From: Apostichopus japonicus
Lineage: Eukaryota; Echinodermata; Holothuroidea; Aspidochirotida; Stichopodidae
Length of the DNA: 64,000 bases
Direction of reading: 5' to 3'
Assembly: GCF_037975245.1 (NCBI RefSeq)
Contig: NC_092567.1
Span: 25,102,876 to 25,166,875, forward strand
In this document: positions 2,895-37,500 of the stretch, in pieces
How positions within the stretch are numbered: position 1 is the first letter of the stretch
How the letters are laid out: each line of letters starts with the position of its first letter
Translations under genes and position numbers: made by a program
The notes under the pieces: model-generated
Database searches by the model: none
What the model was told of the DNA's origin: nothing
Seen by the model: the letters and a program-made list of their open reading frames with translations, nothing else

Positions 2895-5800
2895 CTTGTA
2901 AGAGGTTTCCCAGATTCAGCTAATGGGGAGAATGAGACTTCAAATAACTCATCCATGCTCCGTATGTGCTCGACAAAATAGTCAAATTTCCGTTTGAAGA
3001 TGTCCAAGGCATGCTGAAGGACGGAGCTATGTTGCGCTTTACCGACGGCAATCAGGTTGAGTTGTTCTTCTACGGCAGCTCGCATGGTTGGCAGTGAAAG
3101 GTCTGGATCGATCTATGGGGAGCAACAATAGTTTTATCTGTGTTGTATTCTTAACTCATTTATCTTTTACAAATGTTCAATCTGAAAATAATGAATATTC
3201 ATATTCATTCATACCAATTTACCATACAGCATATAGGACATTTAACACCATGATATCTTGATCCTACCTGTTCATGAATATTCATTCATACCAATTTATC
3301 ATACAGCTTCTAGGACATTTAACACCATGATATCTTGATCCAACCTGTTCATGAATATTCATTCATACCAATTTATCATACAGCTTCTAGGACATTTAAC
3401 ACCATGATATCTTGATCCAACCTGTTCATGAATATTCATTCATACCAATTTAACATACAGCATATAGGACATATAACAATGATATCTTGATCCTACCTGT
3501 TCATGAATATTCATTCATACCAATTTATTAACAGCATATAGGACATATAACACAATGATATCTTGATCCTACTTGTTCATGGATATTCATTCATACCAAT
3601 TTACCAAACGGCATATAGGACATATAACACAATGATATCTTGATCCAACCTGTTCATATGGAACATATAATGTACATATGTGCAGATTATAGAAATATTG
3701 ATGGAAGAGTAATAAACGGAGCAATCCATGTCCAAAGAACAGAGGAAGGAAAGTGGTAGGGGGGCTGGAGGAGGGGTGAGAGGGGGAGCTGGAGGATGGG
3801 GAAAGAGAAGCGCTGGAGGAGGGGGTGAGAGAGGGGGCTTTAGGAGGGGTTAGAGAGGAAAACTCTGGATTACTTTCATTGGGTTACACATCACAACAGC
3901 TAACATAAAATAGAACATTGCAATTTTGATATGTGTTGGCAACAACTTCATTTTCTTTTTTTTATATTTAAAGCAATGAGACTTAGCAATCGGGAGGTTC
4001 CCGGTTCGATACCCGGCCGGGTCATAGTAAGGTGGGTTTTTTATCTTAGAAGCAATCTACAGTTTTCCCAATCGAAACGACTTTCTATATTGAAAAGATT
4101 CCAAATTTCAGTTAAAATGTTGAATTGGAAGCCACCCGACCTGTAAGTTGTAATCCATAAGCCCTCCCCTTATTCTCCCACATTTGTGGTCGCTCAAGTG
4201 TCGAAAAAAAAACATTTAATTATTATTATTATTATTGCATTGCAAAATTCGTAATTACTCAATTTCAGAAATGTTCCTAGCTGCGTGTAATATTATGTAA
4301 ACAACCGAGCCATCTGCTTCCCTTACCTTGTGGTAACCATGCACCAAGACAATGCCAAGTCTTGTAGGGACCAGCCGTCTCCCACCGCCAACCTTCACAT
4401 AATTTCTCTGACAGATATTTTCGATGTGAACTGGTATGCTTGCGTCTGTACCGATGCCATGTTTCTCCATCAGGGTGATCAGTTCTGCCTCTGTGAGATA
4501 ATCTGGAGGGCATGTCTGTTTCTCTATCAGCCTAGCCTGTGTAAGATTTTAATTGAACACAAATGGTCAACTTTTGTTTCGTGCAATTTTGACCATACAC
4601 ATTGATTAATAATAATAATAATATTCATGATAATAAATGAGATTTATAAAGCGCCAAATCAGTTAGACAAAAGTCACTGCTCAAGGCGCTTTACAGAGAA
4701 AGCAGATTAATTAACAAAAGAACAAGTGAAAAGATGAGTCTTAAGAAAACTTTTGAATGTATAAAGTTTATTATATATCTAGTCTCCATTTACTTATACT
4801 AACTTGGAGAAAAGTTTGTCTGTTTATCAATTGGTAATATAAATATCACTGACCTCATCTTTGGGATATGCCTGACCCTGTTTGAAATCTGGTAAACCCT
4901 CCTCTGACCCCATTTCTGTTAATCCTACATAGTCATTACACTGACCTCATGAAAGAGATCCTGTGACCCTACTTGGAGACTGGTAAAGCCCTCCCCCCCA
5001 CCCCCCACCAACCCAACCCTGTAGATTCTACAGATTTATAAAACTGACCTCATCGCTAGGGTATGCCTGACTATGCTTGAAGTCTGGTATGCCCTTCCCC
5101 ACCACCCCAATGCAGTAGATTCTACAGATTTATAACACTAACCTCATCGAAAGGGTAAGCCTGACCCTACTTGAAGTCTGGTATGCCCTTCCCCACCACC
5201 CCAACCCCTTCAGATTCTACAGATTTATGACACCGACCTCATCGATAGGGTAAGTCTGACTATGCTTGAAGTCTGGTATGCCCTTCCACACCACCCCAAC
5301 CCTGTAGATTCTACAGATTTATGACACTGACCTCATCGATAGGGTAAGCCTGACCCTTTGTAAAGTCTGGTACGCTCTCCTCCTGTGTAATGGCCTGCCA
5401 CGTCATGAGCGAGGTGAATCCAGGGCTGATGAGCTTCTTGCCAGTTATACTAAAATGCTCCCCGTTGATGATAAACTTCACGGTCGTCTGGAGATAGCGG
5501 CAATCATCGCTGATCTACAAATTAAAGAGAAGCAGACTCTGTGATTTTGCAGAAGTTATTATCCAAAGTTAAATGTTATGCTTTAATCAGTAGCGTTGTG
5601 CGGAAGTGAAAATTTCACACAAACGGTAGTGTTGCAACATGAATCCCGGTATCCTAACTAAAACCAGGATTGTCCTCAACTTTCATCTACCGTTCAAAGC
5701 ACTTAGTTACGAGACTGTTAATGTCATACATTCAATATGCATAGCCTAGGCTATGTACATACTCTTACACGCACGGTTATAAAAAAAAAACATACCAAAT

Positions 5801-8800
5801 TACAGGCTATATTAGGACCTTTGTTTTTTAACATACACTTTAAAAAAAAAAAGCACAAACCTTGGAAAAAAGTAACCCACACCATCCTTCATTCATTCTC
5901 GACGTACGATATTAAATTAACACGTTCCCACGTGGATAAAACTTGTAATCCATACACAAACAAAAATTGGGGGTTTCTATTCCATATAATAACGGATTGT
6001 TTTCCCCCTCCTGGTAGTATTTACACATTGCACTGTGATTGGGACTAGTCAATACCGGGATCGGGATACCGAGATTCACTTGACTACCGGGATCCCGCAC
6101 AATTCTATTAATCAGTCTGTGAAGAAATGTACTGAAGGGCTCATATAGATCCCTTCGTGTCACCTATCTGAATGTTATCTTGACATATCAAACTAAGATG
6201 TAACATGCATATATGTATAAGCTAATCATACAGATAATGAAACATGTGGTTGAAAGAAGGTGGTAGAGTCTGCATTCTGTGCCTACCCAAATTGCCACCC
6301 ATACGTACCATATGTGTGGTGTTATTCCGCATCACTATGTTAACACTGAAATGACATTTAACTACATTCATTCATTCCAGGAACCCCCATTGACCTCTAT
6401 CATCAATTGCTTCAACAGCTCATCAATTCCTTGGTCGATGCAACAGAACCAACAAATTTCAACCAGTTAACGGCTATTGAGCTGACTGTGAGGATGTCTG
6501 GTTCTGGTTGGAGATTCAGTCAGATTCAACAATGAACATTCATGTTACTTACTGTAGCTATAAAGTGTTTGGCGATATACTCGTAGATTCTCCAAGCTTC
6601 CCCCGTTAGTTCCCCTTCCCTGGCTGGTCTCATGGGTGTGATGGGAGGATGATCCCCTTCATCTGACCCTTTTCTGGGTTTATTGATCCCTTCACTGAGT
6701 AAATCTCTAACTATGGATGACCATGGGCAACCCAGTTGCTGTCTCAAGGCATTACTGATAGGACAAGAACAAAACAAAACGATCAAACACAAGAGTTCAT
6801 AGATTATCGTTCTTGGGTTGCAACCCTGCTATGAGGGTCATGCCACCCCAAACCCTGCTATGAGGGTCATGCTAACCCTAACCACAACCCTGCTAACAAA
6901 CATTGGAAACATTGTTTCCAAAAACCTGGCTTGGGACCTACTGTAATAGCTTGGTGACCCATTCTTGGTTGCGACCAATAGTATGGGAAGCCTAAGGTTA
7001 CAAAGAATGTAAGGCCCATTGTGGTAGTAGCTATTCCACTGGACATCATGTTGTTCACTTTCTAACAGTCTCAAAATTTCATCATATTGTATATAAAGCA
7101 TATTTCATAGACATGGTGCTAGATGTCTTGAGAAAAAGTGGGTAAGGAATGATAAAAATGATCTAGTTCAAATCTTAGCGGAAAATAGCAGTTTTTTTTA
7201 GAACTTTTTTTATTGACTTGTTTCATATGTCACTATTCATGTTGTATCTCCCATGTTTAATACATCTAACTTAACAAATGGCACTGAAACCAATTTATTA
7301 TATACAGAAGCCTTGAATCAAAGTCAGACCAGGGAATTATTTCTCTGGTATCGCATAATACTAAAACTGCTACACAAATGCAAATATATGTACCAGCTCT
7401 TGCAGACCAAAGCATACTGGTTCTGGAATTTTATGAGAAATAAAGTTCATAAATCTGAAGAAAAGTTGAAATTGGAACACTTAATTTTTCCCTGCATACA
7501 ACACAAAATCTACCCTATTAAAAATTAACTTTGACATATGAATTTTTCCAAACAGGGACTTACTTGAAGTCAAAATTTTGCGAGTAAGATGTTGTTTCTG
7601 TCCTGGGGTAGCTGATGTAACCCTGGGTGTACAACCGTTCAGCAATCTGCATAGCGTGGTGAGGACTCATTCCTAACGAAGCACTCGCAACTCGCATAAG
7701 CTCTACGGTATTTAATGCAATGGGGCGCTGTTTCTTTTTCTCCTCAGAAGAAACAGAAGTGACCCTGTGCATATAGATAAAAAAAAATACATATTTACCC
7801 ATAATTAATTATGCAAATGTGGCATTGTTTCAATTACACTGAGGGATATACTAGCAGCCTAGAAATGTGCCATAAATATGACAGACATGGTTGCCATGAA
7901 TTAATGCTCAAAAACGTGACAAACTATTTTATTACATATCCACTCTCATTAAATGTCATCTTTTCCAAGTTAAATATGGCAGCCATTTTGTCCACTCTTT
8001 GATAGTGACACCTTTGAAAAGCATTTTATGATTGTTTAAATATTTCGTATTTTCAGAAATGAAAGGAAACACTGAAATCGACAAAGTTAATGATAGAAAT
8101 ATTTCTGTAGTGGTTTTGCAAAATGCACAATTTTCATTGAAAAGAAAACAAAGTTATGAATACGACAAAGATCTGCAATAACTGCAACTTCAAAATATCA
8201 TGTCAGAAAGAAGCTTTCACAGATGGTGGTTTAAAAGTATGCAAGCTACACCAATATTATGATCATAACACCAACATTCTGTGGCAACCTTTTTCCTAAA
8301 GCAAATCAGTCTACATATCTTTTCGAAACACCTATATTCAGCCTGAAATTAACCAATAATATAGGGGAATTACATTGATCAAGCTCTCTTTTAATTGAAA
8401 AAAAAAACTTGTTTTGTGTATCCAAAATATATTCTACTAACACTGCTTCCTTCTGCCCTTTCACCAGATTCAGAAACAGCTGGGCCACATCTTTGTCAAA
8501 TATTCTTTGTCGTCCCCAGTCAAGCGTTACGGACTGACCACCGTTTAATACCTGAAAATAAAACACAAAAGAAATGGCTGGTCTCTCAAGCTGAGGGTAA
8601 CATAACTACAAGCGAAAGCTATAAACTTGAATTACTGTTAGAGAGCTTGTACCACTACCTGGTAAGATGGATAAAATGATTGAATTTAGCGCTCTCTTTT
8701 GAAGTTTTCTTTACAAATATTCTCTCCTATTCATTCCAATAAAGAGTCGGATATAAATTGATAACAATGACAGACTATAGATTTCATCTCTATCTCCCTT

Positions 8801-11800
8801 GTAATATATCCTTTTGCACATTTCCTCAGCAGCCCTCCCGATACGGAGTAAGAAATAAATTAATAACATTGCTAAACTGTTTGCTTTAAGTCTATCTCCC
8901 TCTCTTCTGTTATATTTGTTACATTAGAATTAACTTTTCCCTCTTCCAAGGATAAAAGTCAAATTGGTGACATTAATTTCATCTCGCTGTCTCTACATCT
9001 TTTATAATATTTGCATTTATAAGTATTTCTCTCCTCTGAACTTCCAATTATGATTCATAAATGAATTGATCGTACCTCAACATGATCGACCCAGTAAGCC
9101 TCTGGTCTGAATGTTTGAATTCGATCATGCCTCTTATTAATTAATTAATTATTAATTAATTGATCATACCTCAACATGAACGACCCAGTAAGCCTCTGGT
9201 TTGAATGTTTGAATCCGATCATGCCTCTCAACACAGAACCCCAGAGTAGGAGTCTGACAAGGTCCGTAGCTGATTAATGTACTGTCTAAATCTCCATATT
9301 TACCCTGGAATCAATAAGAGTCAGAAGATGTTTCATTCATTCATATGCTTTTCTTAACAATGGTAAGAAATGTTAAAAGTTACAACACATGTATCACAGA
9401 GAAGTCATTTTCAAATGTGCACAAAATTATCATTTTGTAGACTTCTTACCCAAATCCCAAAAACTGCATGATTGGTAACTTACCTCAAACTTCTGAAAGC
9501 ATGTTTTTCTTGTAAAATTTAAGATTTAGCACATCTTGTAATTGTATTAATGCTTTGCAAATGTCTTGATTGGAATCTCTGATGCGACAGAATATTGCAA
9601 AATTTAGTAGTTTAACACATCTTATCATGACAACCATCATGCACTCATCCAAATATATCAGAATCAAGATAATTACATAACAGCTAACAATCATAACATT
9701 TGCAAGGCAAGAGTGGCTTAAGAGGGCTCAGTCTAGAGGACAGGTGTAAGGGGGTAAAAATTTGAGGCCCAGTGAGACTCAGTGCATGGTATGTCAAGAC
9801 ATAATATTCAGTGCATTAATCTGATCATTACACTTAGTGCATAGTATGTCTAGAAATAACACTTAGTGTATGGTATGTCAACACATTGCACTTAGTGAAT
9901 GGTATGTCAAGACATTGCACTTAGTGTTTGGTATGTCTAGACATTACATTCAGTGCATTAATCTAAACATTACACTCAGTGCATAGTACGTCTAGAAATA
10001 TCATTCAGTGCATGGAATGTGTAGAAATTACATTCAGTGCATGGAATGTCAAGACATTGCACTTAGTGCCTGGTATGTCAAGACATTGCACTTAGTGCAT
10101 GGAATGTCAACACATTGCACTTAGTGCCTGGTATGTCTAGACATCACATTCAGTGCATGGTATATATCTAGACATTGCACTTAGTGCCTGGTATGTCAAG
10201 ACATTGCACTTAGTGCATGGAATGTCAAGACATTGCACTTAGTGCCTGGTATGTCTAGACATTACATTCAGTGCATGGTATATATCTAGACATTGCACTT
10301 AGTGCCTGGTATGTCAAGACATTGCACTTAGTGCATGGAATGTCAAGACATTGCACTTAGTGCCTGGTATGTCTAGACATTACATTCAGTGCATGGTTTA
10401 TATCTAGACATTACATTCAGTGCATAGTATGTCTAGAAATTACATTCAGTGCATGGAATGTCAAGACATTGCACTTAGTACATGGCATGTCTAGACATTA
10501 CATTCAGTGCATGGTATATATCTAGACATTACATTCAGTGCATAGTATGTTTAGAAATTACATTCAGTGCATAGTATGTTTAGACATTGCACTAAGTGCA
10601 TGGTATATCTATACATTGCACTTAGCACTTGGTATGTCTAGACATTACACTTATGTAAAGATTGCAAACCCTACAAGTTAACAATCACTATTATGCAGAT
10701 TATTAACATACAAACTGAACATCCTGGTAGATGAACCATGACCTCCACCAACCAGCAATAACAATGCAGAAATCAACACAAGTTACCTGAAAATATTTGG
10801 TCTGGTATCTTGTAAATGCGCAACCAATTCGAAGGTCCAATTCTTGTCGTGCGTCCACTGCTAAAGATTCATTCAAATTTGGTTCAACCAATTTATTCAT
10901 GGCTCCTCTGATATCGGTGTCTGTAATGGCGCTAAATTTTGCCCGGAATATGAACTGTGAACATAGAACCAATATGGTCAGTAATAACATTACTGTTTCC
11001 CACATGTTTGGCTTGAAGGGAGGTGTAGGAGAGAAATATGTTCACTGATAGCACTAAATCTTACTAACTCAAAATGATCATTCTCAGTGTAAACTGTTAT
11101 GTGATTAGGATACAACATACAACTTTGATAAAAAAAAAATAACATCTGTTTTTAGGTGTTGTTAGCTAATTAAAACATTTTTCCATCATTCTACTATCAA
11201 ATTGTTGGTCTCTCATGGTTGGTTGAGTTTTTACGAAGAGATTCATTTTCAGGTTACCTGTTCCCTTCCCCTCGGTCTGTTCATCACAGGCTCCACACAG
11301 TCAATTACCTCAAAACAAATGTTTTCACCTTCCTTGTCACAATCAAGCCAGAGTATCAGATAATCTGAGCCACGGCCCTGTCGAAAGAAGAGAATAGCTG
11401 TAGTAAACTGAAGATCACTAACGATGACAAATTTTATGTTGCAGTAGGGCAGCTATTCCTAGATGATTGCATAACTACTTCAGTGTTTGGCAAACATGAG
11501 AACGTACTGTACACATATCTCAAGTTTACCTCACAAAAATATATTTTTAAAGAATTTAACGAGGCCTGTTTCATGATTAACCTTGAAATTTGCATACCTA
11601 TCCAACTAATTACATAGTCTTCATAATAACTGTGCCAGTGGTTATGATGGTATTTTTATTGTACATCCTAAGAAAAGCTTCATTTTGTATCGTGAAACCA
11701 CTTGCTTGTATTTTTAACCTTTCCCTTACCATTGGAATGTTTCAGACAATAACACCAGTGTTGTAAGCCGGTGAGCCAAGTTTGACTTATAATTACGAGA

Positions 11801-13743
11801 CAAATTCTATTTTATCCTGTCTTACAATAATTTGGGAACAGGTTGACAATCGCATTACTGCTCTTGTTACAGTAGGAAAAATGAGCTTTTCTGCTTTTGC
11901 AAACAGCATGCTTCTTAAACGACTGCCCTTTGATGTTGCAGGTTATATAACTCATACTATAAACAGAATACTACTGGACTATTTATTGATTTTCCAAGGC
12001 TTTTGACACAGTATTCTACTTAGTACATTGTATCATTATGGTATTCCTCACCAGTGGATCTCAAGCTATTTGTCTAATCAAAAGCTATTAGTCTTACCTC
12101 CGTTGTCAAAAAATGTGGCATTTTCAGGTTTGGGTTTGCTTCCTTTTTTGCTGTTGGAGCTCCAAACAGTTCAGACTATTAAAAAAAAAGTAACATTGTA
12201 TATTCATTAAATTAAAATCAAGGCCACAGTATCCACTCTTACTACCTTTCAGATGTTGAATGTTTCATTGATCAAATAGATGATAGTCAAATGTTTGCAA
12301 AAGCTAAAAAATAAAAGTCTTACCCCATCTTTCCCCTCCCACCCACTGTACCAAAGTTGATCCACCTTCTTCCCATCCCACAGAGAAAAACATTTTGCAT
12401 GTGATAGTTTTTCAATCAAATAAAAGGCCACGTATTTTCTTTTCTGTTACTTTCAGAACACATTTGAAACACTGCTTTAAACCATCAAATAAGTTTTAGC
12501 CAAATGTCACAAAAAAGACCTGTTCTAGAATAGACCACATTCTGTGAGTGTTTAAGGATGACATTGTAGGCACTACCCATGGTGCAGACATCTCAATAAA
12601 GTTGGGTCTAAGATTAGCATTTTCTTTGACTATTGAAATTCAAGTTTGTAAACTGGTTGCACCATATTTAAGCAGATAAATTTGACTCATTTTCCACCAG
12701 AACATAATATATATTTCCTAAAGAAATATTTTCTTTCTGTGCTAGTTAAAAGTGTCAACTGTAGCAGACAAGGCTAGGCAACATTGTGTATGTGTAACAG
12801 ATGATTGTATGTGTGTGAATATGAAATAAAAAATAAGCATGCACATACAAGAGCTCTTCTTATAATTGAATAATGAATGTATGTACTAATTAATTTGTGA
12901 AACTTACTGGATCCACTTTGTCCCAACTATTGTACTTTGGGAGGAAATCCAAACCCATTACATGTCCACAAACTGATGTCATCTGAAAGAAATGAGAGAA
13001 AGATGTTATATTGACTTTGACAAGTTTTTGATTAGTAATACAATTAAGTGAAATTAAAAACAATAGTTTTAGTGCAGCTGATCTGATGTGGCAGGGACTA
13101 CAGTTGTGCAAAGCTACAGCCACGACCAGCCAATTTCCTCAAAGATCAAGTTCAATTATTTTCAGCAACATTTATATCTAATGGACATGTTTGTCACAGA
13201 ATCTGTCACAAGCTGAAACACTCATTTAAAAATCCCAATCCAAAATACATATCCAGATGCCTTAGCAAAACCTAGAAGGAAATGTAGTCAGCCTTGTAAA
13301 TTTAAAAACTATACCTGACCATTAAGCTATCTGACTTTAACATACTAGCTTAAATATTATATTTCCGAGAAGTATCGAATGTCGTAAACTTCTCATAATA
13401 GTCATTTTCTCATACTTGTCATATGCCTAACTTCAGCCTACACTAGTTAGGCCTACTGTATGCTTCACTGTTCTTGTTGCAATCATAATCATCCATGAGA
13501 CTAAAAGTTTCTCATCGATGGTTAAGATTATCACTGAAATTGTGAACTAAAAAGTTTAATTAGTAAACGGCTCACGATCCTTACCTTGAATTTCACGGGT
13601 TCTCCCTGAAATGTTCCATTGTACTCATGTATAGAACAAGCTCCGTTAAACCCTTTCCGCGAATGAAGGTTGCCTCCAGATAGAATTTTAGCCAGTGACT
13701 GAGCTAATTGTGGCTTTTCGGCCACCATAAAGGCAGTCTTCAT
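2895..13743 (-). CDS. TOP3B: DNA topoisomerase 3-beta, 5' twelve coding exons (3' end outside window)
   Basis: Type IA topoisomerase that cuts and rejoins single strands of DNA or RNA. Exons on the minus strand (high to low): 13743-13585, 12982-12908, 12175-12098, 11377-11258, 10954-10787, 9304-9170, 8551-8442, 7764-7564, 6754-6553, 5514-5332, 4536-4327, 3112-2895. Phases join cleanly into 619 codons plus two bases, collinear with the vertebrate protein (about 860 aa). The N-terminus [11 protein letters not shown] is the Toprim start; the acidic motif LDCDKEGEN falls near residues 115-123; the active-site motif [10 protein letters not shown] puts the catalytic tyrosine near residue 334; [13 protein letters not shown] is the conserved core motif in exon 11. 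The Met at 13743 was chosen because it matches the family start; an in-frame Met lies 7 codons upstream. The C-terminal zinc ribbons and RGG-type tail were not found in 1-2894 and should lie further left. The gene is head-to-head with CCDC59. Its introns carry several exon-derived repeats (see separate entries). Confidence 0.95.
3195..3660. repeat. Tandem repeat, about 77 bp unit, six copies
   Basis: The unit contains GATATCTTGATCC, CTGTTCATGAATATTCATTC and ACCAATTTA followed by an ACAGCATATAGGACAT-type end. Starts of GATATCTTGATCC fall near 3251, 3328, 3405, 3480, 3556 and 3635. It lies in the TOP3B intron between exons 11 and 12, about 85 bp beyond the exon 12 acceptor. Confidence 0.9.
3963..4240 (+). 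repeat. tRNA-derived SINE-like repeat, 5'-truncated
   Basis: A tRNA 3' half is visible: a B-box GGTTCGATACC at about 4004-4014 flanked by near-complementary T-stem bases (CCCGG / CCCGG). The 5' half with an A-box is not recognisable. Downstream the sequence runs into an A-rich segment and a (TTA)n tail near 4218-4236, as expected at a SINE 3' end. It is not a functional tRNA gene. Lies in the TOP3B intron between exons 11 and 12. Confidence 0.55.
4606..4740 (-). repeat. LINE 3'-end-like fragment with microsatellite
   Basis: A TAA microsatellite at 4606-4622 is followed by AAATGAGATTTATAAAGCGCC and CTCAAGGCGCTTTACAGAG, a hairpin-forming arrangement. The same layout (TAA run, then an AAAGTGCTTTT-like and GAAGCGCTG-like pair) is present at 33160-33235 at the 3' end of the coding LINE fragment in GCC1. 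I infer a 3'-terminal remnant of a related non-LTR element, minus strand. Confidence 0.45.
4852..5375. repeat. Exon-derived minisatellite at TOP3B exon 10 donor
   Basis: A unit of about 95 bp starts at ACCTCAT positions 4852, 4944, 5047, 5141 and 5236, then the true exon 10 edge at 5330. Spacings are 92, 103, 94, 95 and 94. Each unit contains a copy of the last ~45 nt of exon 10, its GT donor, and ~50 bp of adjacent intron. All five intronic copies keep the GAGGT donor core. In copies 3 and 5 the exon-like part is still open in the TOP3B frame; copy 4 has an in-frame TAG. Confidence 0.92.
9066..9228. repeat. Partial duplication of TOP3B exon 6 3' end with its donor
   Basis: Bases 9066-9134 repeat 9160-9228 at an offset of 94 with four mismatches in 69 bases. 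The copy at 9160-9228 is the functional exon 6 end (exon to 9170, donor GTATGATC below it). The other copy lies downstream in the intron and carries the same exon-like 59 bases and a GTACGATC donor. An AT-rich ATTAATTA block separates them. No acceptor is apparent for the extra copy. Confidence 0.9.
9735..10655. repeat. Minisatellite of ~29-30 bp in TOP3B intron 5
   Basis: About thirty copies of a unit like ACATTGCACTTAGTGCATGG plus TATGTCTAG fill the region. A higher-order pattern alternates CACTTAGTGCCTGG and CATTCAGTGCATGG types, with some TATATATCTAGA spacers. Wholly intronic, between exons 5 and 6. Confidence 0.93.
11940..12090 (+). pseudogene. Degenerate LINE reverse transcriptase fragment
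   Basis: The plus strand encodes LFIDF near 11977, then after a frameshift KAFDTV, and in another frame [18 protein letters not shown] at about 12031-12085. This order is the conserved RT palm region ([11 protein letters not shown] ... YGI ... WxxSYLSNR) of Jockey/CR1-type non-LTR elements. The fragment is frameshifted and cannot be active. It ends about 12 bp from the exon 3 donor of TOP3B, on the opposite strand. Confidence 0.75.
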
Positions 13744-14218
13744 ATTTCTAGTGTTTATAGTCACGTTGCTAACAATATAATGACTTCAATGCTCCCATTT
13801 CAGATGGTAAATGGAGTAAATTAACCTTCGTGAACGTGGATTACTGGCAAGAGAAAAATTCATGGAGGCAGCCATTGTAGGATCGTTCGAAGCAATTAAA
13901 ATATTTTAAATAGAATGCTCATTTATAAAGTATATATTTTAGTTCAAAGATGTATTTTAATGTAGAATATTATTTTTACACAGCGACAGTTTTTTGTGTG
14001 TTTATTTTTAAACAAGAAATAAATCTGAAATTTAGTGGGTAAATATTGTGTAACTACGTTCCGCACTAGGCCTCAGTCTAGATAAACGATTTGTGCAGTC
14101 CTACACATTCACAGTACACGAGTTTGACTTTCAACGATCCTGCGGTAGTTGCGGAGAAAATAAGTATTTTAACATATTCTTAACTTAAATTTATTGGCAA
14201 CACACTACAAAGTGAATC
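13744..14218. promoter_or_regulatory. Divergent promoter region between TOP3B and CCDC59
   Basis: The start codons of TOP3B (minus) and CCDC59 (plus) are 475 bp apart in head-to-head orientation. No other gene fits between them, so both core promoters and 5' UTRs must lie here unless further 5' non-coding exons exist. I see no clear TATA box or CpG-rich core; the stretch is AT-rich. Confidence 0.6.
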
Positions 14219-18503: not shown

Positions 18504-21500
18504 ATGACTGAGGCTAACAGACCCAGACGGTAAAACAAACCTTACATTTTGTCTTTGCCTACCCACATCCACAGTAGGCTAACCCTGCAGAGCCTACTTC
18601 ATATTGTCAGTAGGGTCTACAGTTAGGCATAGGCTATCCAGGGGATGAATAGTGAAGGTCGCACAATTCATTATTCTCCTTGGCTTCAAGGGAAATAAAC
18701 AATACTAAACATACCCATATCAATTCACTTATTTCTTACATATATCATACATAAAATCCCAAGAATTATTAGGCTACAGTTCTCCTAAGCCTAGATGTAG
18801 TAATATAGTAGTTAGGCTATAGTAATAATACTAGCTTTTATTGCCTCTCCAGATCAAAAAGGGAAGTTTCTTATACTACATTTGACGTCAATGATGACAG
18901 TGATGGTAAGAGACTCTTCTTATTTACTGTCATATACTGGAATTTTGACTTCTCAGTGGCTTTATAAGGCATCCATGAATGGTCAAGCTTTCTTGTAAGA
19001 CCTGTTAAAAAAAATTATATATGAGGTTATGGGTAGAGAAAATGACATTTGAAAATAATCTCAACCCTCACAAGGGGTAACTCTCAAACTTCTCCTGTTG
19101 GAAGGATATTATCAACATTTATACAATTCAGACCAAGCATCTGTTCACCTCTGTTCATTGATCATCAACTTTAGGTATTACAGCTAAATCAGGTTAGATT
19201 GGTCCATTGTCAGTCAATGTCCTTAAAAATGATGCTGCATGTTCTTGTACTGTACAAGTTGTTTATCAATGTTCAAGAAAATATGTGCTTTACATTTCTC
19301 CAATTTATCCTTCCTTACATTAACATTCATGATTTCATTCAGTTGCGGTCACACTAATTAGCGTCAACTCACGACAACTCACGACAACTCAAGACAACTC
19401 AAGACAACAGGTTTAAAATAACATCAAATACAATTGATGTTATCAGAGTATATCTGGAAACACGTTTGAAAGTGACTGGAACCAGCGTGCATACAGATCT
19501 TTCACGGGAAAAAATGTTTTTGTCGTAAAAATCGCCAACTTTTTCCTAACGTTGAATTAGACGACGTGATGCTATTGCGATTGCGCAATGCCATCGGACC
19601 GAACCATTATAATATGGGTGGGTTTGTGCTAGGTTTGGAAAGTACCTTGTGTACAGTGTCGGTAAGGTGGGTTGTCGTAGTAATAAAGCACCAAAGTATG
19701 GTGAATGAACTCCAAATCAAATTATTTAATGTTTTAAAATAATGAATACTTCTTATTATTTTTCCATTTTAATTTACATATGTTATTATTAATTTTACAG
19801 AGTCTTGCTTACTATCATCTTGCTCGGTTTTATTATTCTCTCCGTCAAATCATTGAATGTTTTTAAAATAATGAATACTTATTGTTTTTCCATTGTAATT
19901 TACATATGTTATTGAAAAATTACACTTACCTGTAGTGTAATGGTTCGGTCCAATGTCATTGCGCAAGCGCAATGGCATCACGTCGTCCAATTCAACGTTA
20001 GAAAAAAGTTGGCGATTTTTACGACAAAAACATTTTTTCCCGTGAAAGATCTGTATGCACGCTGGTTCCAGTCACTTTTAAACGTGTTTCCAGATATACT
20101 CTGATAACATCAATTGTATTTGATGGTATTTGATGGTATTTTAAACCTGTTGTCTTGAGTTGTCTTGAGTTGTCGTGAGTTGTCGTGAGTTGACGCTAAT
20201 TAGTGTGACCCTTCAGTTGCAGTCTAAAATAAATTATCATTGGCAGTATTGTTTGCATGATAATTGGCCTGTATTAAGAGAACTGCAGAGAACATGTTGT
20301 ATGTTGCCATAGAGCAGTATGACAGACAATGAAGGTTTTGAATGGAATGAAATGATTTGATAAATCATTTGTATGTTTTTGAATGTATCAAGAATCAGGG
20401 ATGACTGAAGGTCATTATTCTCATGTTGACAATCGTTGTTCCTCACATTTTACTTTTCTGTTTCAAATAAAGAGGATTTTGCCAGTTTCACACCCCCGGC
20501 TAGTAAGAAAACCAAGAAAGAAAAACGAGATGTGAAAAGTTCTAAACGGCAGCCAGATAAACAGAAATCCAAAGAAACAGGAAAGAAAACTCCAAAAGAA
20601 AGGTAAAGATGAAAGAATGCACTCAATCCTGATTTACCTGCCACAGATATTTAGCAAATAGCTCTATGTTCAGTGACATTTTAATGTTCTGAATTATAAT
20701 ACAAACAGTTCCCAGTGATCAGTCCTAAAATATATACTTTCACTGCTTTGCAAGTCTCATTAACACCCTGGATATTTGCTCCACAAATTGCTGTGTTTGA
20801 CTGTGATTGAAATTATTGTATGTTATATCATGTGTGTATGTATGCTTCTTGTGATTTTCCTAAGCGTGGCCCAGGCTGACATCATCTCATTTTCAAACAT
20901 TTAGGAAGGCTGTTGATGACAGGATATTTGACAAGGAATTAGAGTTGGCTTTGGAGATTTCGAAAGTGGAAACTGGTTCTCAAGAGCAGCAGGAATCGAA
21001 AGAAATACAGGCATCAAGAGTGACAGGGGATGTGAAAGAAGAATCAATACGATGTGAGAAGGTTGTTGCAGACATTCACATACCAGGTAGTTATCTATGT
21101 TAAAGACATTGAAGACTCGCCCCAAACCCCCTGAACCATCTGAAAAAGTTAATTTTCTGTTGCTTGCAAGTGACGTTTTGTTCGTGTCGCTACAAAATGC
21201 AGACAGTAATGAAACGTGATGCCTTGTTATCTTTAGCTGGACCTGAGATGTCCATCGCTGTATCGTTTGTACTACACTGTGCTGTGGGTATTGACCGCAG
21301 CTGTATGTACTTACTGTACACTAGTGTCTAATTACCGACGGTAGCAAGCTGTGTGTGAATATTTTCTGGGATCGATGGTGGTGTCTAACCCTTCTGTTAC
21401 ACCTCATTCGAAACTAGGTCAGATTACCAGCATTAGACGTTTCTTTTTGCGCGAGTCTTCACACCCTTTAAAGTAAGGAAATAGATATCTTAGAATTAAT

Positions 21501-25487: not shown

Positions 25488-25493
25488 AATAAA
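25488..25493 (+). terminator. Candidate polyadenylation signal of RAD51AP1
   Basis: AATAAA in a GAAATAAAGAAAG context about 730 bases after the RAD51AP1 stop. It is the best canonical signal in this stretch, but earlier non-canonical sites cannot be excluded. Confidence 0.4.
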
Positions 25494-25829: not shown

Positions 25830-26218
25830 GCAAGATGCTACCTGACCAACAATGGCCATCATCACAAGTTAAAATTCTACCAAGAGAGAGTGAATTTCAT
25901 GGCATTTACCAACGATGGCCATCACAAGATAAAATTTTACCAAGAGTGAGTGAATTTCATGGCATCAACCACCGGTGGGTGGTGGCCATCATCACAAGTT
26001 AAAATTCTACCAAGAGCGAGTGAATTTCATGGCATTAACCAACGATGGCCATCACAAGATAAAATTTCACCAAGAGAGTGAATTTCATAGCATTAACCAA
26101 CGATGGGCATCACAAGATAAAATTTTACCAAGAGTGAGTGAATTTCTTGGCATTAACCACCGGTGGGTGGTGGCCAGCATCACAAGTTAAAATTCTACCA
26201 AGATTGAGTGAATCTGCA
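25830..26218. repeat. Tandem repeat, about 60 bp unit, six to seven copies
   Basis: Units carry ATCACAAGTTAAAATTCTACC or ATCACAAGATAAAATTTTACC, then AAGAG.GAGTGAATTTCATGG and CAT.AACCAACGATGGCC. Some copies end with the variant CACCGGTGGGTGGTGGCC, giving a higher-order alternation. Open frames on the plus strand across it are repeat artefacts. Confidence 0.9.
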
Positions 26219-28521
26219 TTAACCACCAACTTGTTTCGTTGTCACTTTCAAAAGTGCAAAAAGGATGAACACTACTCTGTGATAACGTACTAACATGTGA
26301 TAGGAAGAGTAGCAAAAATATTTGGTTCCATGTGAAAATATGAAGATGTAACATGCAGACAAAGACGAACATAAAATGTCACCCCAAACCTTTTGCTTTT
26401 CATAACTAAAATAAAATTTAATTGAATTTTTCACATAAAACAAAATCAAACTTCCCCAAAGATACAAGTCTAGATTATAGTTATAATGTCCACATACCAC
26501 TTGAGCCTATCACCTCTTTTAACTCAAAATAAAGATAAGAAGGCGTTGCCCATTATGGTTGTAATTTCTATAAATACACATAATTCATACAAGATACATT
26601 CATATCAGTATACATAATTGTTCAGTCTTTGGCAAGCACAAAATTTCATTACACCTAAAATAACAAATGTCTTTCAATGTACATTTTGGCGTTATAAATA
26701 TTTTGACGAATAAAGCAAAGCAATTCTCTGATCCTATGGACAATGCAAAATTTGACAATACCCCAATTATGATATGAGGTTCTTTCTGTAAGATTAACCA
26801 TGTCTCGGTCTCAGGCAGTTGCCACTATAGCTTTATAGGCAAAGAAGATGAGAGTTTAGCTTCTGGTGGTTAATAGCTTCCCTACCCCCTACCTCCCCCC
26901 CCAAAAAAAAACCCCACCTCTCCCCAACTGACATGTAAATGCCCTAGTATGAACTAGCCGTCTTAAAAATAAATGATGCGAAGGTTTGGACAACATGAAC
27001 GCAGGACTAACACAGACCAATTAAGCACAAAAATTGCAAGTTAATAAAAATGCAATTATTGATCCCTATCATGAAACAATGGATATTTATGATAACATTT
27101 TATTCAAATGAATTTATGATACTAGTACTGTTAGATATAACATGTTTATAAAGATTGTGATAAAATGTTTTCTGTATACAAAACCATTTTACGCAAAATT
27201 AATACCAATTTCTTTGGCGTATTACCATTAGCAAGTATTTAATAAAACTTTAAAGACTCAAGAAATTAGTTCTATAAAAAATCGCTAACATTTCATGGCC
27301 CTTTATAAAGTAATGTTAACCTTTTCTGGGGGTACCCAAACATTCAAAAATTAGATGAAATGATTAAAATAGACCAATTTAAAATTAAACCATCCAGCTG
27401 CTGGACATTTCAAGCAAACAATGAGTCATGTCCAGTTTTGTGTCCTTACATCTATTTTAGATCATATTTTAATATGTTGTACTTTTTTTGTCATCGACTG
27501 TATCTATAACAGCATGCACAACATCATTCACTCGGCTTTTTCAGATAATTTACTATCTTTATATGTATATATTTTTAAAGAAAAGTTCAGATTGTTGTTT
27601 GTTGGATTGGTTCATTAAAAATACATTCAAAGAAGAAAACATTCAATAAAGTACTCTTAGTTTCAAGAAATACAATATTAATGTCATATTTAGACTATCC
27701 AATTAAAAGAAAGGAATGTTAACCAGCAAAGACTGACCAGAGACATCTCCATTTAGAAACAGAGTCAAATTTGTGATGATCTTTCCCAACAGTGATTGAG
27801 GTCAGTGACTACTAAATTCTGGCAAGTTACTGGTAACGATTTCACTCGACCATAAACGTGAACATGTTTTATCTACTGGGCAGACATTATGTTGTATTTT
27901 GCGTTTGGCTATATTACTTGGCTGTATTACTCTGAGCACTGTAACGTTCATGCACAACCTTATCTTAGACTCATTCACACGATGTAACCCATTCAACTTA
28001 CACAATATAACTTACATAACTCATTCTCAACCTTAAAAAAACCATGTAACTTATGTAATGTAACTTATGTGACCCATTCACATGATGTAACTCATTTAAG
28101 TATAAGTGAAATTTTAAAGCTATAAGTATATATAAGGAAAAAAAATAACCATCTATTTACTATTCACCTCATTTTAGAAATTAAAAAAACACCATCAGCA
28201 ATTCTTTGGATCGAGGTCTGGACAAGACAGCATAGCTGTCACCTATTGTCTGAGGCAAAGACAGAAAGCTTCAAACCAATTAAATTTAAAATTAATTAAT
28301 TAATTAATTAAATTAATTTCAAATAATTCACTTAGGTAGTCATTCTTGGAATAGAACATTACCCTTAAAAGTTTAAATGAAGGTAGGCCAATTTAAGATA
28401 TAAAATGAAGACATCTCAAGGAAGCATGGTTGAGATTACTTGGCAACTTTTCATCCAGACTATCACCAAGAAAAAAATGTTTTTCCTTTCACATTCTATC
28501 GTAAATTTTAAGGAAGTTGCT
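26219..28521. other. Intergenic / 3' UTR stretch between convergent RAD51AP1 and GCC1
   Basis: No coding exon is recognised. The stretch is AT-rich and holds part of the GCC1 3' UTR on the minus strand. A short imprecise repeat of CATTCACATGATGTAACTCATT-like words lies at about 27965-28095, and an ATTAATTA run at 28290-28320. Confidence 0.6.
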
Positions 28522-31500
28522 TTACATCCCAGACCACCAAGCCGAGGAAGTCTTCTTCATCACATTTTCTTTCTGTAGAATTTGAAAAAAAACAAACAAT
28601 CTTACTGAAAAATGAAACAAACATGATATTATGCATCAAAGATCACTATGATATGTTCAAACTCATCCTGGTGCAAGGAAATTTAACTCATAAGCGTCAC
28701 AAGCTCAAATCTTAAAAAAGATCTAGAAGCATTCATTAGACTCAATTACTTCTACCAAACCTGATACTCAAATCTATTTAATGTTGTTAACATGAAAATG
28801 CAAGTTGTTTCAGTTTTTGCTCTGTTCGCCTCCAATGGAATTGAGAGCGAGATGAGACTCAAATACTGACAATAATTCAGCCCTTTATAAAGCCGTCATA
28901 TTATGAAAATGAGATTATAATATTCTTGATTCTGTATTTCCCCTAACTTGACCACCTTAGGCCTCAGGGACTACCTGCCCCCCCTCCCCACCCCCCGGCA
29001 CCCTCCCTCTTCTTATAAGTAGCTCACCTCTCGTGGACTGAAGTGAAGTATGGTGGAGATTGCATTAAACATCCTCTTCTTTCCAGATATACTGTCAGTA
29101 AGCAAGTAATTTAAAACAACATTCTTCAGATATTCCAAGTTAGTGCCTTCTCGAGATCTAAAATAATGGAGAAGAGAAAACAAAATTCATGATAAGAGTT
29201 TTATCACAGAACGACATGGCAGATCATGAATAGTACTAATTCCAACTGTCCCTAACAACAAACATATTATTCTGTAATTCTGCTTCCCTCAACAACTGGA
29301 GTTTTATATCTCACTACAGGATATTTGTTTTACTGATGTTGTGTCATTTACCGGGAATATTTTAATATATTTAATTCTACAGACCTGTTTCTCTTCCATC
29401 TCTCCACCTCCTCCTGTAGGGCTTCCATCTCCTCTGCATGTTTCTCAGTACTAGAGGAATGTTTGTCTTGTAGTTGTCTCAAGGCTGTCTCTAATTGCTG
29501 TTTCTGTCTCTTGATTGTCGTGAGTTGGACTTCTCTTCTAGCTTGTTCTTCTGCATAGTGAAGTAATGATGTGCCGCTATTGGCAACCTGATGGTAGGTA
29601 AGAACAAATTGAAATACTGTCGTGCTATCGTATCGAATATATCTAATTTTATCCTGAAAGCTCCTTAAAAGCCTTCATAGCCACTCTGGATTGTTTTAAG
29701 CATCCCAAGAAGATTTTACCTTCAGTTCTCAAGCTTGTGTTTAACGCAAAAGTTAACAAACTGTTTTTTATATACCCAACGGAGGTGTTCGACCTATACA
29801 GGCACACATGTAGGTGGAGCTAACTTGATTAATTCTTGGCCTCACATGTGACTGGCTCTTTGGAGCTATATGCTTGTAAAAGTGCACACGATCAATCACC
29901 CATAAACCGATGAAGAATCATTACTCACAGACTATATGGTTACAAGCTTCATTTAAACGTTCCCTAGTTTTCTTACCAATTGAGTAGCAGGGTTTAAGAT
30001 GAGTTGTGAGACCATCTGTTCCGTTTCCTTGGTAACCGGTGCCTCTGCTCCCAAAGTATCACTGCTGAAGACGGAGTCTGATGATAACTGTCGTGGAATC
30101 TGACCTTCATCACTACCCAAACAAAGAAACAGTCACATTTCAACATTGGTCTCCAATGTTAACATGCTAAACTTGCTTCAATTCTTCAGACATACTTTCC
30201 TTTAGGTTCTGACAGTCCAAATTATTCCAGGATATTTCATCACAAAAGAATTTCCAACATTCATTTGCTTTGCGACTATTCATTCATCACAGAGAGGGAC
30301 ATTCTGATGTTTCACTTCAAAACATTTAACATTTCTCCAGCAACTTTTCCTCCCTTGCAAAACATGTGCGAGTTCACCATCTACTTATTCTAAAACGCCC
30401 GAGTACAGTTCTATGAGTACAAATACAGGCAACTATATGCTAGAATACATATATGAGTAGGTACTAACTATAAGTATGTACCTTTCTATTCTGCTGACAT
30501 AAACACTAACACAAACAAGAAAAAAAGTTAATTTTTGTGGTTACAAACCAAATTTGATATTAGTTAAGAGATATGAAACCAGATTTTTCTGTATCACATA
30601 CCTGAGTACAAATACAGGCAACTAGATGCTAGAATACATCTATGAGTAAGGACTAACTATAACTCAGTGTGTGTGTTCTGCTGAGAGAAACACTAACACA
30701 TACAAGGAAAAGAGTTAATTTTTGTGGGTACAAACTAACTTTGATATTAGTTAATAAATATGAAACCAGATTTTCTGTATCACATACCCATAGGTCCTTC
30801 CTGTGTACTGGCTAACCTGCTGTTTTAAGTGGTCAACTTCTTTATCTTTGTCCACGAGTAAGGCCATCGTTCGATCCCTCTGTTTGCCCACTTGATGCTC
30901 TAAATCAGCAATTTTTTGCTGAAGGAAATGTAAATGGACATAAAATCCAGAGTGAGTTCACTTGCATTATTGTCACAACAGATTTCTAAAAGAATAAGAA
31001 ATGTCTGCCACTAAAACAGCCCATCCTTCATCCACCTATTCCTTGAGTGATTTCATAAGAGCCTCGCCTACCATACAGAAGGCACAGAGATGAAGAGGTA
31101 GATGGAAACAACACAAGGGCTGGGCACGTTCTAAATCTTACAAGCCATAGTAAAAAATTTATACCCAAACTGCAGGTCTCAATGCTTGAGGATGTTCCTA
31201 CTCCCATGACAAACTATAAAAATTACATTATATGGGAAAGGAAAGGAAATTTCTACACCTGTTTGTCTGTATAGTATAAAATACTGTATAGTATAAAATC
31301 TGTAAAAAGTCTGTATAAAGTCTGTATAGTATAAAGTTTGTAAAGTGTAAAGTATACATATTTCATGTTATTTGTTTCGGTCTTTCAGTGAAATTCATCA
31401 CCTCAGTTAATTTCTGGGTAGAGAAAAGGATTTCTCCCATGGGGGGATAAGGTTAAAGGGCCACGTTTTGAGGGTTATGCAGGCAGAAGAAACCTGAGTG

Positions 31501-34500
31501 CAGGCCACACTTTGTCCAGCTGTGGTTTATAGGGCTTTGTTGTGTGCAATAGTGCTCTGTGCTTGTGTATAGTGGATAGAGTAGGTACACAACAATAACT
31601 GAACTTTTAACAACGAAAATATAGCCATCACTCCACAATAACACAAAGGGGTCTGAACTACATAAAACAGTCACCCACCCACACAAAAAATACAACATTT
31701 TTTGCTAAAATTATCTTCATAAAGTCAAGAGAGATGTTTCAGAATATGGAGAAGGAAGTCCCTTCCTAATGAACTCAGTGATATGGTTGTCACACATAAT
31801 ATCAAAAGAATGTATTCAAAATATTTAAATATTCAGTGAGTGTGGTGAATATTCACGACAACTGATCTAAAGTTTGATTCAACCAAAGCATCATCTTTTC
31901 AAAATCAAACCAAGAGATAATGCTGATGTGTTTAAGTCTTTTTTTTTTTGGGGGGGGGGGTGGACTTTCAGAATACCTTAAATTCTCCTTCAGCCTGGCA
32001 CAGCTGTTGTTTATTAAGCTCCTTCTGTTTCATCAATTGGCCTTCCATAGCTTGTTTCTAAAGACAAAAGTAAAACAAAGGCAAAACCATGACAAAAACA
32101 GAAATTAGAAAATTAAAGCTACGACTGTAAAATGAATTCCTATGTGTAAAGTCTATCACCATGGTAAGTATTAATTCATTGCTGTCTCATTTAAGGAGAT
32201 ATTTACCGTTTCTCGATGATTCTGCTCTTCGTCGTCGAGTTGTTGTCTCAATATTCCCACTCGTTCCTTGTATTCATTCATTTGTGCTTGTAATTCTTCT
32301 TGTTCTTTATTGCTTGTTGTATCCTGTAAGATAAATCAAAACAATAGAAATGTTAAGTATTGTATTTTAGATCCTCCTGCAAGCAGGACTCGCGGAGAAG
32401 CCATCATTGGCTTATCAAAGCAGCAAGCTGACCAAAGCCAGTCTCTTAGATTCATATTTTAACCTCCATGATTATGAATTGTTTATTGTCAACAACTATG
32501 TAACTGGAGGAAATACATTAATTTTGGAGTGACTCAAACTCGGGACCTTGAAGTGAAATGATTTCTTCTACCTATTCTTACATCGTACAGTTTCCTTCGA
32601 GATAAAGTTGAAATTGAGAAAGACTTCTTGCATTTGTTCTTCCAAGGTAAACCTTTTTCAACCCAAATATCAAAACTTTCTATTTGCTAAAGGGGTATTG
32701 GAATGTTGGGAGATTGCATTTGTTTCAAGGTAAACCTTTCCAACCCAAATATCAACACTTTTATTTGTTGAAAGGGTACTGGAATTTGGGGAGATTGCTT
32801 TTGTTCCAAGGTCAACCTTTTCAACACAAATATCAACACTTTTATTTGACAGAGGGGTATTGGAATGTGGGGAGATGACGGAAGTGGGAGGGGTGAATTG
32901 TGTAATCTGAGCGAACAGATCACAACAAATTTGTTTTTGAGTTAGTAACTCCAATACTGAATTTTCTATTAAGGGATGGAAGGGGATGAAAGTAGAGGGG
33001 GGAGGGGAGGGGGATTAGGGATGAGGGGAGGGGGAGGAGGGAAGGGGGAGGAGGGGGAGGGGATCAGAGGGGAAGTGACAGAAGAATTACTTTAACACAA
33101 AATGTCAGATAATAAGCAGCAAGACATAAAGGAAACAAAATTAGCAAACCCTAGTTTGTAATAATAATAATAATATAATACAAGAATTTGTAAAGTGCTT
33201 TTATCCAGTTAAAAAAACTGCTCAGAAGCGCTGCAGGAGCAAAGTACCCAAAATGGACACAACAGTTATTAAACAAATGGATACGCATTCATGAATAAGA
33301 ATGTCTTGAGTTCTTTTTGGAAAGTTGACACATGCTGGATTGTTTTCAGATGTAAGGAGAGACTGTTCCAGCGCTGTGGAGCTGATCTAGCAAAGCAACG
33401 TTCCCCATAGGTGGAAGTGGGAACAGTAGGAACAGGTAGCATATGTTGTACGCTTGAACGAAGCACCCTGCTAGGTCTGTATTCTTGAAGAAGCTCTTGT
33501 AGGTAACTTGGGGCTAGACCATTCCTTGCTTTGAACACAAGGACAAGAATTTTATAATTGATTCTGTCCGCAATTCTTAGCCAGTGAAGATCTTTAAGAA
33601 CTGGTGTTATATGTTGGTGTTGTTTTACCTTGACATTCCTATTCCTGATGACAGTCTGCGCCCTCAATTTGTATCTTTCAAATTCATCCTTTAATTGTCT
33701 CAGCTCCTGTTGGCAGGCTTTGTGGTTAGGATTCTGCTCCCTGCTGGTCTCATCCTCCCAGCTGCCAATATCTGCAGCAGATGAAGAGAGTAAGACAATT
33801 TATGGACTTGTTTCAAAACACAACAAAGTAACTGGTGTCATGTTTCATAACTAACATTAAAATAACCACACTACACTAGTCACCAAAATCTCTCAATAGA
33901 CTACAATGTCATAAAGTATATTTGTTATGTTCAAAATGTTGGTAATTAATGTTCCTACTGATGAACATACTAACAATTAAGTTTCATAAGTAAAGATGGT
34001 TTTGCCTAAAAAACATCTAAAAAAAGGAGTACAAACAGGCTATAAGTCTGTTGAGAAGGAACATAGAATATCAAGGTTAGACATCTGTTGTGACACGAAT
34101 GCAACATATGAATAAAATAAAAATGAACAGGGTATTTGAGTCAATTTCTAGCCTTCTAGGAGTTGATAAGTTTTGCTATCATGGGGAGAGATGTAAGCTT
34201 GCAGGAAATTAACTTGTAGGACTCAGTTAAAGGACACAGAAACTCAACCATTGCTATTAGTCTATATGATAGAGATATCAACAACTTCCCTAAACTGCTA
34301 AGAATTGTTTTTTTTTTCATTTGAGAGAAATTTGTTTTAAACTTTTCTTCATGCACAAGGCTGAAGACTTGATTACATGTCAACATGACTTCTATCAGCC
34401 AAAAGGTTTTTTGTGTTTTTTTTTTATATATTTTACAATTTTTACATACTGTAATGAAGATTTAAAATATTTATGCTTCAACATGATCCCACAAATTGTA

Positions 34501-37500
34501 TCAATTTGTTTCATTGTCAACAGTTTTTAATATAGTACCTTGAAAATATGAAACAACTGGTTTCAGATCCTTAGATTCACATTCACATTCTATTACACAG
34601 GCTCTCTAGTGGATAAGCAGTTTGCTAACAGTTTTATTTCATTTTGGTTTCAGATCCTAGCGGAACAAAGACATTACAGACTTACAGCTCCTAGAAACGA
34701 CTTTTGAACAAGGATATCTCCCAAACGCAACTAGAGATTCAATAGCTATTTGGGAGAATTTAGGGGAGTCAGCAGTTCCCAATTTATTATACACATATTT
34801 ACAGACAACTCTGTTGTCCTTTGTTTTATTCTATTCATCAAGCAATTGTTAATAAATGCAAAACACAACATAAAACTAGTCTTGATGTTGCAGACCGTGC
34901 AATCAAAACACTCGCTAAGTGTTTCTCAAAGCCTGCAAGAATAACAGACATTTCTGTACTACAATGTAAGTAGGCATATATGTCTTGGTTTGGTATGCTT
35001 TGAACACAAGAATTTACAAGTGTGTGTAAGTAGATATGTTCTGGTTTGGTATGCTGTTAACATAATAAAGTTACAAAGTGCAAGAAAACTGGATCAACCT
35101 GCTAAGTAATGCTCAAACAACATAAACTTATGAATTCTGTTAAGCCAAATAAGTTAATTAATGAAATAAGTTCACATTCATTTCAAATTTCTTACTTATG
35201 AAATAATCATCAATAATGTTAATGCTCACCGTCAATATCCACCGGTTTTTCTGATTTTTCGATGGCTATTTTTAAAAGTCCTTTCAATTTTAGAATGCCT
35301 TCTTTTATTTCTGCAGGGTCAGTGGATTCTTCAACGTTGACAGTGTTGTTGCTGTTCGCTGCTCGAGCGAGGGCAGTGTTCTCCATATCAAGTTGAGTGA
35401 TACGTTCTTTCAATTTCCTGCAATAGGTACAAAATGCTAACATGGACTGTTGCTGCTTTCCATATGAATATGCATATATACATGATGAGGTAACTGATAG
35501 TAACTCCTCCCCTCTCCACCACCATTCAATACAACGACATACTATAGACTTATAGTTTGTATTATTACTTGGATAATTAATCAACAAAGTACCTTGCAAA
35601 ACTGACCACACTGTGACCATAAACTGTCTGTACCTCCTGCTGGTCAAGCCCCAAATAAAAGACTTAATAACTATTTGTAGGGCACGCCCTGTCTGGACCC
35701 CTCAGCCACACCCATTCATTCGCAAGCTCATCACATTCAGCCTTGATACATAACTGTAGCTGTTCTTTACCAGACTGACCACACCATCCTTACTGCATTA
35801 CCCCCTCACTTCACCCAAACTAATACAAAGCTCTTCTTTACCAAACCACACCATCCTTGCACCATCACTTACTGCATTGCACAAGCTCACCACACCCTTC
35901 CTCAGTACAAAGCCCATCCATACCAAACCACACCATCCTTGCACCATCCTTGCACCATCATTGACTGTATTGTATACTCACCCCACCCTGCCTTAATCCA
36001 AAGCTCTTCTTTACCAAACCACACCATCCTTGCACCATCACTTACTGCATTGCGCAAGCTCACCACACCCTTCCTCAGTACACAGCCCATCCATACCAAA
36101 CCACAACATCCTTACACCATCCTTGCACCATCGTTTACTCTATTGTATACTCACCCCACCCTGCCTTAATCCAAAGCTCTTTCATACCAGAACACACCAT
36201 CCTTGCACCATGACTTACTGTATTGCAAGCTGGTCTTGTTGTCGTACCCTGTCATTGCTACCCACGACTTCCGATAGTTCTGCTAATTTAGCCTCTAAAG
36301 CAGTCACTCTTTCTTCCTCCAAGGCTCTCGCCCTCTTCAATCTCTCATCCGCCTCTCTTGATTTCTGTTGCTCCATCTCAACTTGTATCCTGTGCTGAGC
36401 CTGTGGAGGCACCGATAGCACCGAGATCAATACCCAACACACTGCTCACCAGCCACCAAAATATCATTTAACTAAGGAAATACAAACTTGCTGTTAACAA
36501 TTAGTCCATTTTATAGTCAAGTTTTGTTGGTTGAAGGGATATTCCAATGTTAGACAATACAAAAGAGAGAATATACCACGCTGTTAATTGAAAACACCAA
36601 CACAAAAATTGAACTTGAGATATGGTGATTGAATGTAACCCATTTTGACTGGCTTAACCCGAATAACTCTTGCAGCAAAGTGAGTCACAGAATGTGATGT
36701 ACTGTGATGACAACATGACAGGTGTGCGTCAAAGTTTTACATTCTTATCATAAATGTTATTGTTAAATTATCCTTGAAATGTGACAAATTTAAAGTGTTT
36801 GGAATGTTTCTTGCTGTTAATGTTCTCGGCATGTTGAAATTTCATCCAATTATCATTTTTGTTGAAATATTATTTTTCTCATTGGATGAATGAAAACAGC
36901 CAAACATTTGCAATCCTTTGGTCATGATGACATCATTCACATTGCTGTTGTCAGATGAATTCCCAAAATATCACCAAAAAGTGAAAAAATCTCCAGGGTA
37001 CAAAATGCTATGAAGATGTGCTTTTGACCAATATCCCTTTAATGGGGTCATCTTTTCAACCCACCCCCCCATCCCCATCCCCTGATACCAAAGAGAGGTT
37101 AAGAGTAAGGTAACTAATGGCATTGAGGATGATAATCTTACCTTCATCTCAGCCATATCTTTCTGCAGTTGTAGGAGCAGAGGCGGTGGTTTGGCAGCTT
37201 CCTCTTGGGCAGCGATGAACTTTCTCTGAACTGATTCAAGTTCAACAGAAAGCTTCTTGATCTGTTGCTCATAAATGTGAGATCTGAAAGGATCATGATA
37301 AAGTTACTGAAATGATACCATGTTAAATAAAAATACCGAAGACTTGAATAATGAACAAATAAATTAAAAGCCAGATCAATTTGAGAAATTTACAGTCAGT
37401 AATAGGAGAATTGAAAGTCCCTAGGAATGAAACTGATCTCCAGTTCAACGCCATGTCACAAATATTGTACATGGATTGCTAAAACACTTCTGTATCAGTA

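Follow-up and report, generated by a model that had tools for sequence, protein, structure and literature searches.

In human and mouse, mobile elements located less than 20 bp from exons are strongly biased toward donor sites, and elements are also depleted near exons overall, according to the available part of the paper by Zhang, Romanish and Mager 2011 (PMC3088655), which explains the bias by the length of the splicing signals, about 6 bp at donors versus 20-50 bp at acceptors. Tandem repeats at exon-intron boundaries were found in human duplicated genes, with 27 intron modifications recorded in the accessible portion of the report (PMC2812944), and intron gain via tandem genomic duplication is described in the accessible portions of PMC4974935 and PMC2891723. 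Among the matches listed by a literature search, there was no paper on the distance of minisatellites to donors versus acceptors, which is weak evidence of absence.

Here, we analyze a window of 64,000 nucleotides of Apostichopus japonicus DNA (the whole stretch under study), in which six exons of two genes, TOP3B and a GCC1-like gene, have repeats at their donors. As in human and mouse, the repeats nearest to exons are at donors and not at acceptors, with the shorter donor signal as the probable reason. Unlike that study, which in its available part deals with mobile elements genome-wide, our sample is two genes of another animal, four of the six repeats are tandem duplications, and the donor side is not depleted (6 donors covered versus 5.17 expected, and 4 with a nearby repeat edge versus 1.19 expected). 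The arrays resemble the boundary tandem arrays bearing splice sites in human duplicated genes; however, the variable minisatellites described in the accessible text of that report give rise to transcript-supported introns that are new or alternative, whereas the arrays presented here are known from genomic sequence and show no new intron. Similarly, extra splice sites arise from tandem duplication both here and in the accessible accounts of intron gain, but here the copies stay within existing modelled introns and no new intron is formed. The presence of repeats at donors, with none close to acceptors, is most likely the result of ordinary weeding-out by splicing needs, already published for mammalian mobile elements; this would extend a known mammalian placement rule, on thin data, to another animal and to minisatellites.

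Materials and Methods

Splice sites of both genes were placed by reading frame and GT-AG signals. For random placement, 14 arrays were compiled by manually merging overlapping TRF rows, leaving out rows outside both genes or beyond the last GCC1 exon; four dispersed features were then added, giving 18 features, and each set was run for 5000 trials. The counts exclude what are probably mobile-element tails near 3970-4030 and 4600-4715; the self-BLAST comparison covered alignments of at least 45 bp and rows that start outside 9777-10653 and 58100-58700. Features were placed either gene-wide or in introns only. In a separate single-unit model, each array was represented by one repeat unit, acceptor zones and whole exons were barred, and 20000 trials were run.

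Results

The joined TOP3B exons form a single open frame of 619 codons and match solved DNA topoisomerase 3-beta-1 chains (9cah_A, E 1.2e-249), the alignment being gap-free across the join of exons 10 and 11. The exons of the second gene join into a single frame from ATG to stop, with a Pfam match of the product to the GRIP domain (E 1.6e-14); we call this gene GCC1-like, a name that follows the initial annotation. The exon models yield 28 donors and 27 acceptors for the two genes together, reproducing the 28 donors and the exon numbering given previously. Coordinates are collected in Table 1.

Table 1. Genes, splice-site repeats and related features in the window. The distance is that from the donor to the nearest repeat edge.
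Feature	Coordinates	Strand	Donor	Distance	Details
TOP3B	2895..13743	-			12 coding exons inside the window; gene 3' end outside the window
GRIP-domain coiled-coil gene, GCC1-like	28522..42969	-			17 exons
GCC1 exon 1 donor	42884	-	42884		placed from reading frame
94-bp tandem array across TOP3B exon 10 donor	4843..5382	-	intron base 1 at 5331	51 bp	edge inside exon
94-bp tandem duplication across TOP3B exon 6 donor	9057..9228	-	9169	59 bp	edge inside exon; 92% identity over 78 bp
Tandem array across GCC1 exon 8 donor	35758..36231	-	36218	13 bp	periods 82, 91 and 173 bp
187-bp tandem duplication at GCC1 exon 13 donor	30414..30788	-	30787	1 bp	starts one base inside the exon
Decayed reverse-transcriptase-like fragment, antisense, at TOP3B exon 3 donor	11757..12090	+	12097	~7 bp (placed by eye, accuracy ~10 bp)	fragment ends near donor; by frames
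LINE-like fragment, sense, ATT-rich tail, at GCC1 exon 10 donor	33140..33624	-	33628	~4 bp (placed by eye, accuracy ~10 bp)	fragment starts near donor
SINE-like dispersed repeat, closest to an acceptor (GCC1 exon 11)	32351..32560	+			reverse copy 59810-59990

All six features that the initial annotation had named at these exons were found in the sequence. Four of them are tandem duplications that carried the donor along, so that additional donor copies now lie in the intron; the tandem unit crosses the splice junction at TOP3B exons 6 and 10 and at GCC1 exon 8, and at GCC1 exon 13 it does so by one base. Every copy in the TOP3B exon 10 array consists of the exon end, a GAG/GT donor and the intron start; five copies were aligned, and a sixth, near 4945, was left out of the donor scoring and of the conservation comparison. 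The GCC1 exon 8 array has two more half-unit copies with GT at the corresponding place, which were left out of scoring, and at GCC1 exon 13 the donor and its copy (30601) both read GTATGT. The TOP3B exon 10 copy most distant from the exon (4853-4912, minus strand) retains an open frame similar to the exon end, from which, judged by eye, it differs in part by changes that appear to be synonymous.

The other two repeats, at TOP3B exon 3 and GCC1 exon 10, are putative fragments of mobile elements, both presumably derived from LINEs. The TOP3B exon 3 fragment, read joined over frames, matches Pfam RVT_1 at no better than E 0.11, and its single-frame piece has no Pfam match; the GCC1 exon 10 fragment matches no relevant Pfam family. 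One LINE-like piece compared to solved-structure sequences gave two matches (E 0.34 and 2.4), neither of them a reverse transcriptase, and a literature search with four related peptide strings gave no paper. It should be noted that a single open reading frame of 176 codons (33272-33799, minus strand) runs through GCC1-like exon 10 and on into the adjacent LINE-like fragment, such that leaving this exon unspliced would add a tail derived from a mobile element.

Eight downstream donor copies were scored, with each authentic site left out of its own matrix and the copies kept in, which gives the copies a slight advantage. By these scores the copies make good donors. Two of these share all nine bases with the authentic TOP3B exon 10 donor, and two further copies beside them reach 5.68 and 9.21, against 9.70 for the authentic site. 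The copy of the TOP3B exon 6 donor scores 8.16 versus 8.23 for the authentic site, both GCC1 exon 8 copies score 8.52 versus 7.91, and for GCC1 exon 13 the values are 10.48 (copy) and 4.52 (authentic). Each of the eight, if used, would lead to an in-frame stop 1 to ~12 codons after the normal junction.

Selective upkeep of the copied donors was considered and rejected: the donor stretch is not clearly more conserved than the rest of the repeat unit. The windows conserved at least as well as the donor stretch numbered 9 of 87 at TOP3B exon 10 (five copies), 69 of 70 at TOP3B exon 6, 12 of 95 at GCC1 exon 13 and 36 of 74 at GCC1 exon 8 (three copies).

In this small, two-gene sample, a repeat covers the splice site or lies within 15 bp of it at 6 of 28 donors versus 0 of 27 acceptors. 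When only repeat edges within 15 bp are counted, the numbers are 4/28 and 0/27. The initial annotation had reported six donors with a repeat boundary within ~15 bp, which holds for TOP3B exon 3 and GCC1 exons 8, 10 and 13; at TOP3B exons 6 and 10, the donor is inside the repeat and the edge is 59 and 51 bp away, respectively. The lack of a comparable pattern at acceptors, also stated there, is borne out by the zero count. The single exception then mentioned, a SINE 27 bp from an acceptor, is at this distance with the hand-set end 32351, and at 39 bp with the BLAST edge 32362; this SINE-like repeat, so labelled for its tRNA-like boxes, is 84% identical to its reverse copy over 189 aligned bases.

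The difference between donors and acceptors fades as the limit is relaxed. With distances taken on either side of the splice site, so that part of the acceptor counts comes from the exon side, an edge is found at 6 donors versus 2 acceptors within 75 bp, 6 versus 5 within 100 bp, 9 versus 8 within 150 bp and 10 versus 10 within 200 bp; thus, past 100 bp the counts are similar. In four other genes of the window, the listed repeat closest to any of the 13 checked donors is 42 bp away, so that 0 of 13 fall under the 15 bp limit, a result of little weight because repeats are few in those introns. The end of a 22-bp C-rich minisatellite of ~25 copies (58124-58700) is 42 bp from donor 58742 of another minus-strand gene.

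We compared these counts to those expected under random placement; the features, the genes and the 15 bp limit were picked after looking at the data, and the P values ignore that choice. With gene-wide placement of all 18 features, 6 donors are covered or approached within 15 bp versus 5.17 expected (P 0.41), and 0 acceptors versus 5.12 expected (P 0.0004); for the 14 arrays, the corresponding values are 4 versus 4.00 (P 0.63) and 0 versus 4.01 (P 0.003). The difference between donors and acceptors in coverage has P 0.021 for the arrays and P 0.002 for all 18 features. Counting edges within 15 bp instead, there are 4 donors versus 1.19 expected (P 0.026) and 0 acceptors versus 1.15 (P 0.30) for the 18 features, and 2 donors versus 0.90 (P 0.23) and 0 acceptors versus 0.91 (P 0.39) for the arrays.

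Intron-only placement contains no arrays that cross junctions and therefore overstates the excess for those, while being fair for the two mobile-element fragments; under this null, donor coverage is 4 versus 0.41 expected for the arrays (P 0.0008) and 6 versus 0.52 for all features (0 of 5000 trials), and donor edges are 2 versus 0.41 (P 0.063) and 4 versus 0.52 (P 0.0024), respectively. In the single-unit model, 4 arrays are at donors versus 1.12 expected (P 0.018). When acceptor protection is lifted in this model, 0.98 donors are expected (P 0.011), along with 0.94 acceptors, and the probability of observing none is 0.37. Thus, the outcome hinges on the statistic: by coverage, acceptors are missing, whereas by edges and units, donors are somewhat over-used.

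Discussion

We assign a probability of roughly two thirds to the interpretation that ordinary tandem duplications and mobile-element insertions occurred across introns, after which selection removed the repeats that broke splicing. A donor would require only a few intron bases. After a duplication across it, the exon would keep its own donor, followed by the intron start, a copy of the exon end and a second donor; as long as the exon-side donor is used, the mRNA would be unchanged and the copied exon end would turn into intron. An acceptor, which depends on a branch point and a pyrimidine tract, would require a longer stretch. Duplication across an acceptor would leave a copy in front of the exon, with a tendency to be included in the mRNA, and insertions near an acceptor would strike the branch point and the pyrimidine tract. 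Under such constraints, surviving repeats would be possible at donors and not near acceptors.

We infer both the use of the exon-side donor and the selection itself. The interpretation is favored because no acceptor is covered or touched, compared to the 5.12 expected, while donors are covered as expected; because the difference between the two kinds of site fades with distance; because all eight downstream donor copies would give early in-frame stops; because the join of TOP3B exons 10 and 11 aligns gap-free to the solved protein; and because a like donor bias is reported for human and mouse in the available part of Zhang et al. 2011 (PMC3088655). Conversely, donor edges exceed chance (P 0.026) and the depletion of acceptor edges is not significant (P 0.30); in the single-unit model, donors are in excess (P 0.018) and the zero at acceptors is unremarkable without protection (P 0.37). 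The sample behind this reading is two genes with hand-merged repeats. The case illustrates how introns can tolerate, and lengthen by, tandem duplications across their donors.

It is doubtful that the asymmetry is due to chance alone, although the two genes are rich in repeats and the limit was picked post hoc. The sign test, uncorrected for how the limit and the genes were chosen, yields 0.031 for 6 versus 0 and 0.125 for 4 versus 0, and for the arrays alone the excess of donor edges is within chance (P 0.23). However, zero acceptors covered or touched, where about five are expected (P 0.0004), is hard to obtain by random placement, and a like asymmetry has been published for mammalian mobile elements.

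Another explanation, which we consider unlikely, is that donors are mutational hotspots, with R-loop edges or breaks linked to transcription giving rise to tandem duplications and insertion sites close to the ends of exons. The excess of donor edges and the single-unit result (4 versus 1.12) are consistent with this, as is the GCC1 exon 13 duplication, which begins one base from the donor. On the other hand, gene-wide placement alone yields the observed donor coverage (P 0.41), in two of the six repeats the edge lies within the exon, 51 and 59 bp from the donor, and the other four genes, where repeats are few, contribute 0 of 13 donors. Donor enrichment was not adopted as the leading reading because the coverage requires none, and was kept as a rival on the strength of the edge and unit P values; a weak donor excess is possible. 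The initial annotation had offered two alternatives, the first being duplication or insertion of DNA by a mechanism acting at donor sites and the second selection under which no other placements are tolerated. The second appears the likelier of the two, given the absence of covered acceptors and the fading with distance; the first is unneeded on coverage (6 versus 5.17), yet edges are above chance (4 versus 1.19). If donors were duplication hotspots, this would bear on intron growth and the evolution of splice sites; these data do not require it.

We regard as improbable a broader proposal, in which tandem duplications recurrently capture and multiply donors in this animal, introns lengthen from the 5' side, and the splicing machinery binds the resulting series of surplus 5' splice sites, of which TOP3B exon 10 has six copies, as backups or decoys. 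Insertion at donors of DNA copied from RNA intermediates, either spliced, as the initial annotation had suggested, or lariat, would place repeats where they are found but is highly implausible, being contradicted by the four tandem cases, whose head-to-tail genomic copies include unspliced intron adjoining an exon end or base. In the copies at GCC1 exon 8 and at both TOP3B exons 6 and 10, the exon end runs uninterrupted into the intron start, and the unit duplicated at GCC1 exon 13 consists of intron with a single base of the exon. The two LINE-like fragments offer no evidence either way on this point.

Some other repeats in the window are worth recording. Five tandem arrays (4843-5382, 9057-9228, 30414-30788, 25860-26213 and 47684-48121) have periods that fall close to either 94 bp or 187-189 bp, the longer being about twice the shorter. 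Two copies of an element of ~660 bp, 86% identical, are located at 44658-45326 and 53070-53731, and their ends are, by eye, inverted CGAATGACA-like repeats. A long inverted repeat in an intron (19347-20210), with 93% identity over 273 aligned bases, resembles a foldback element.
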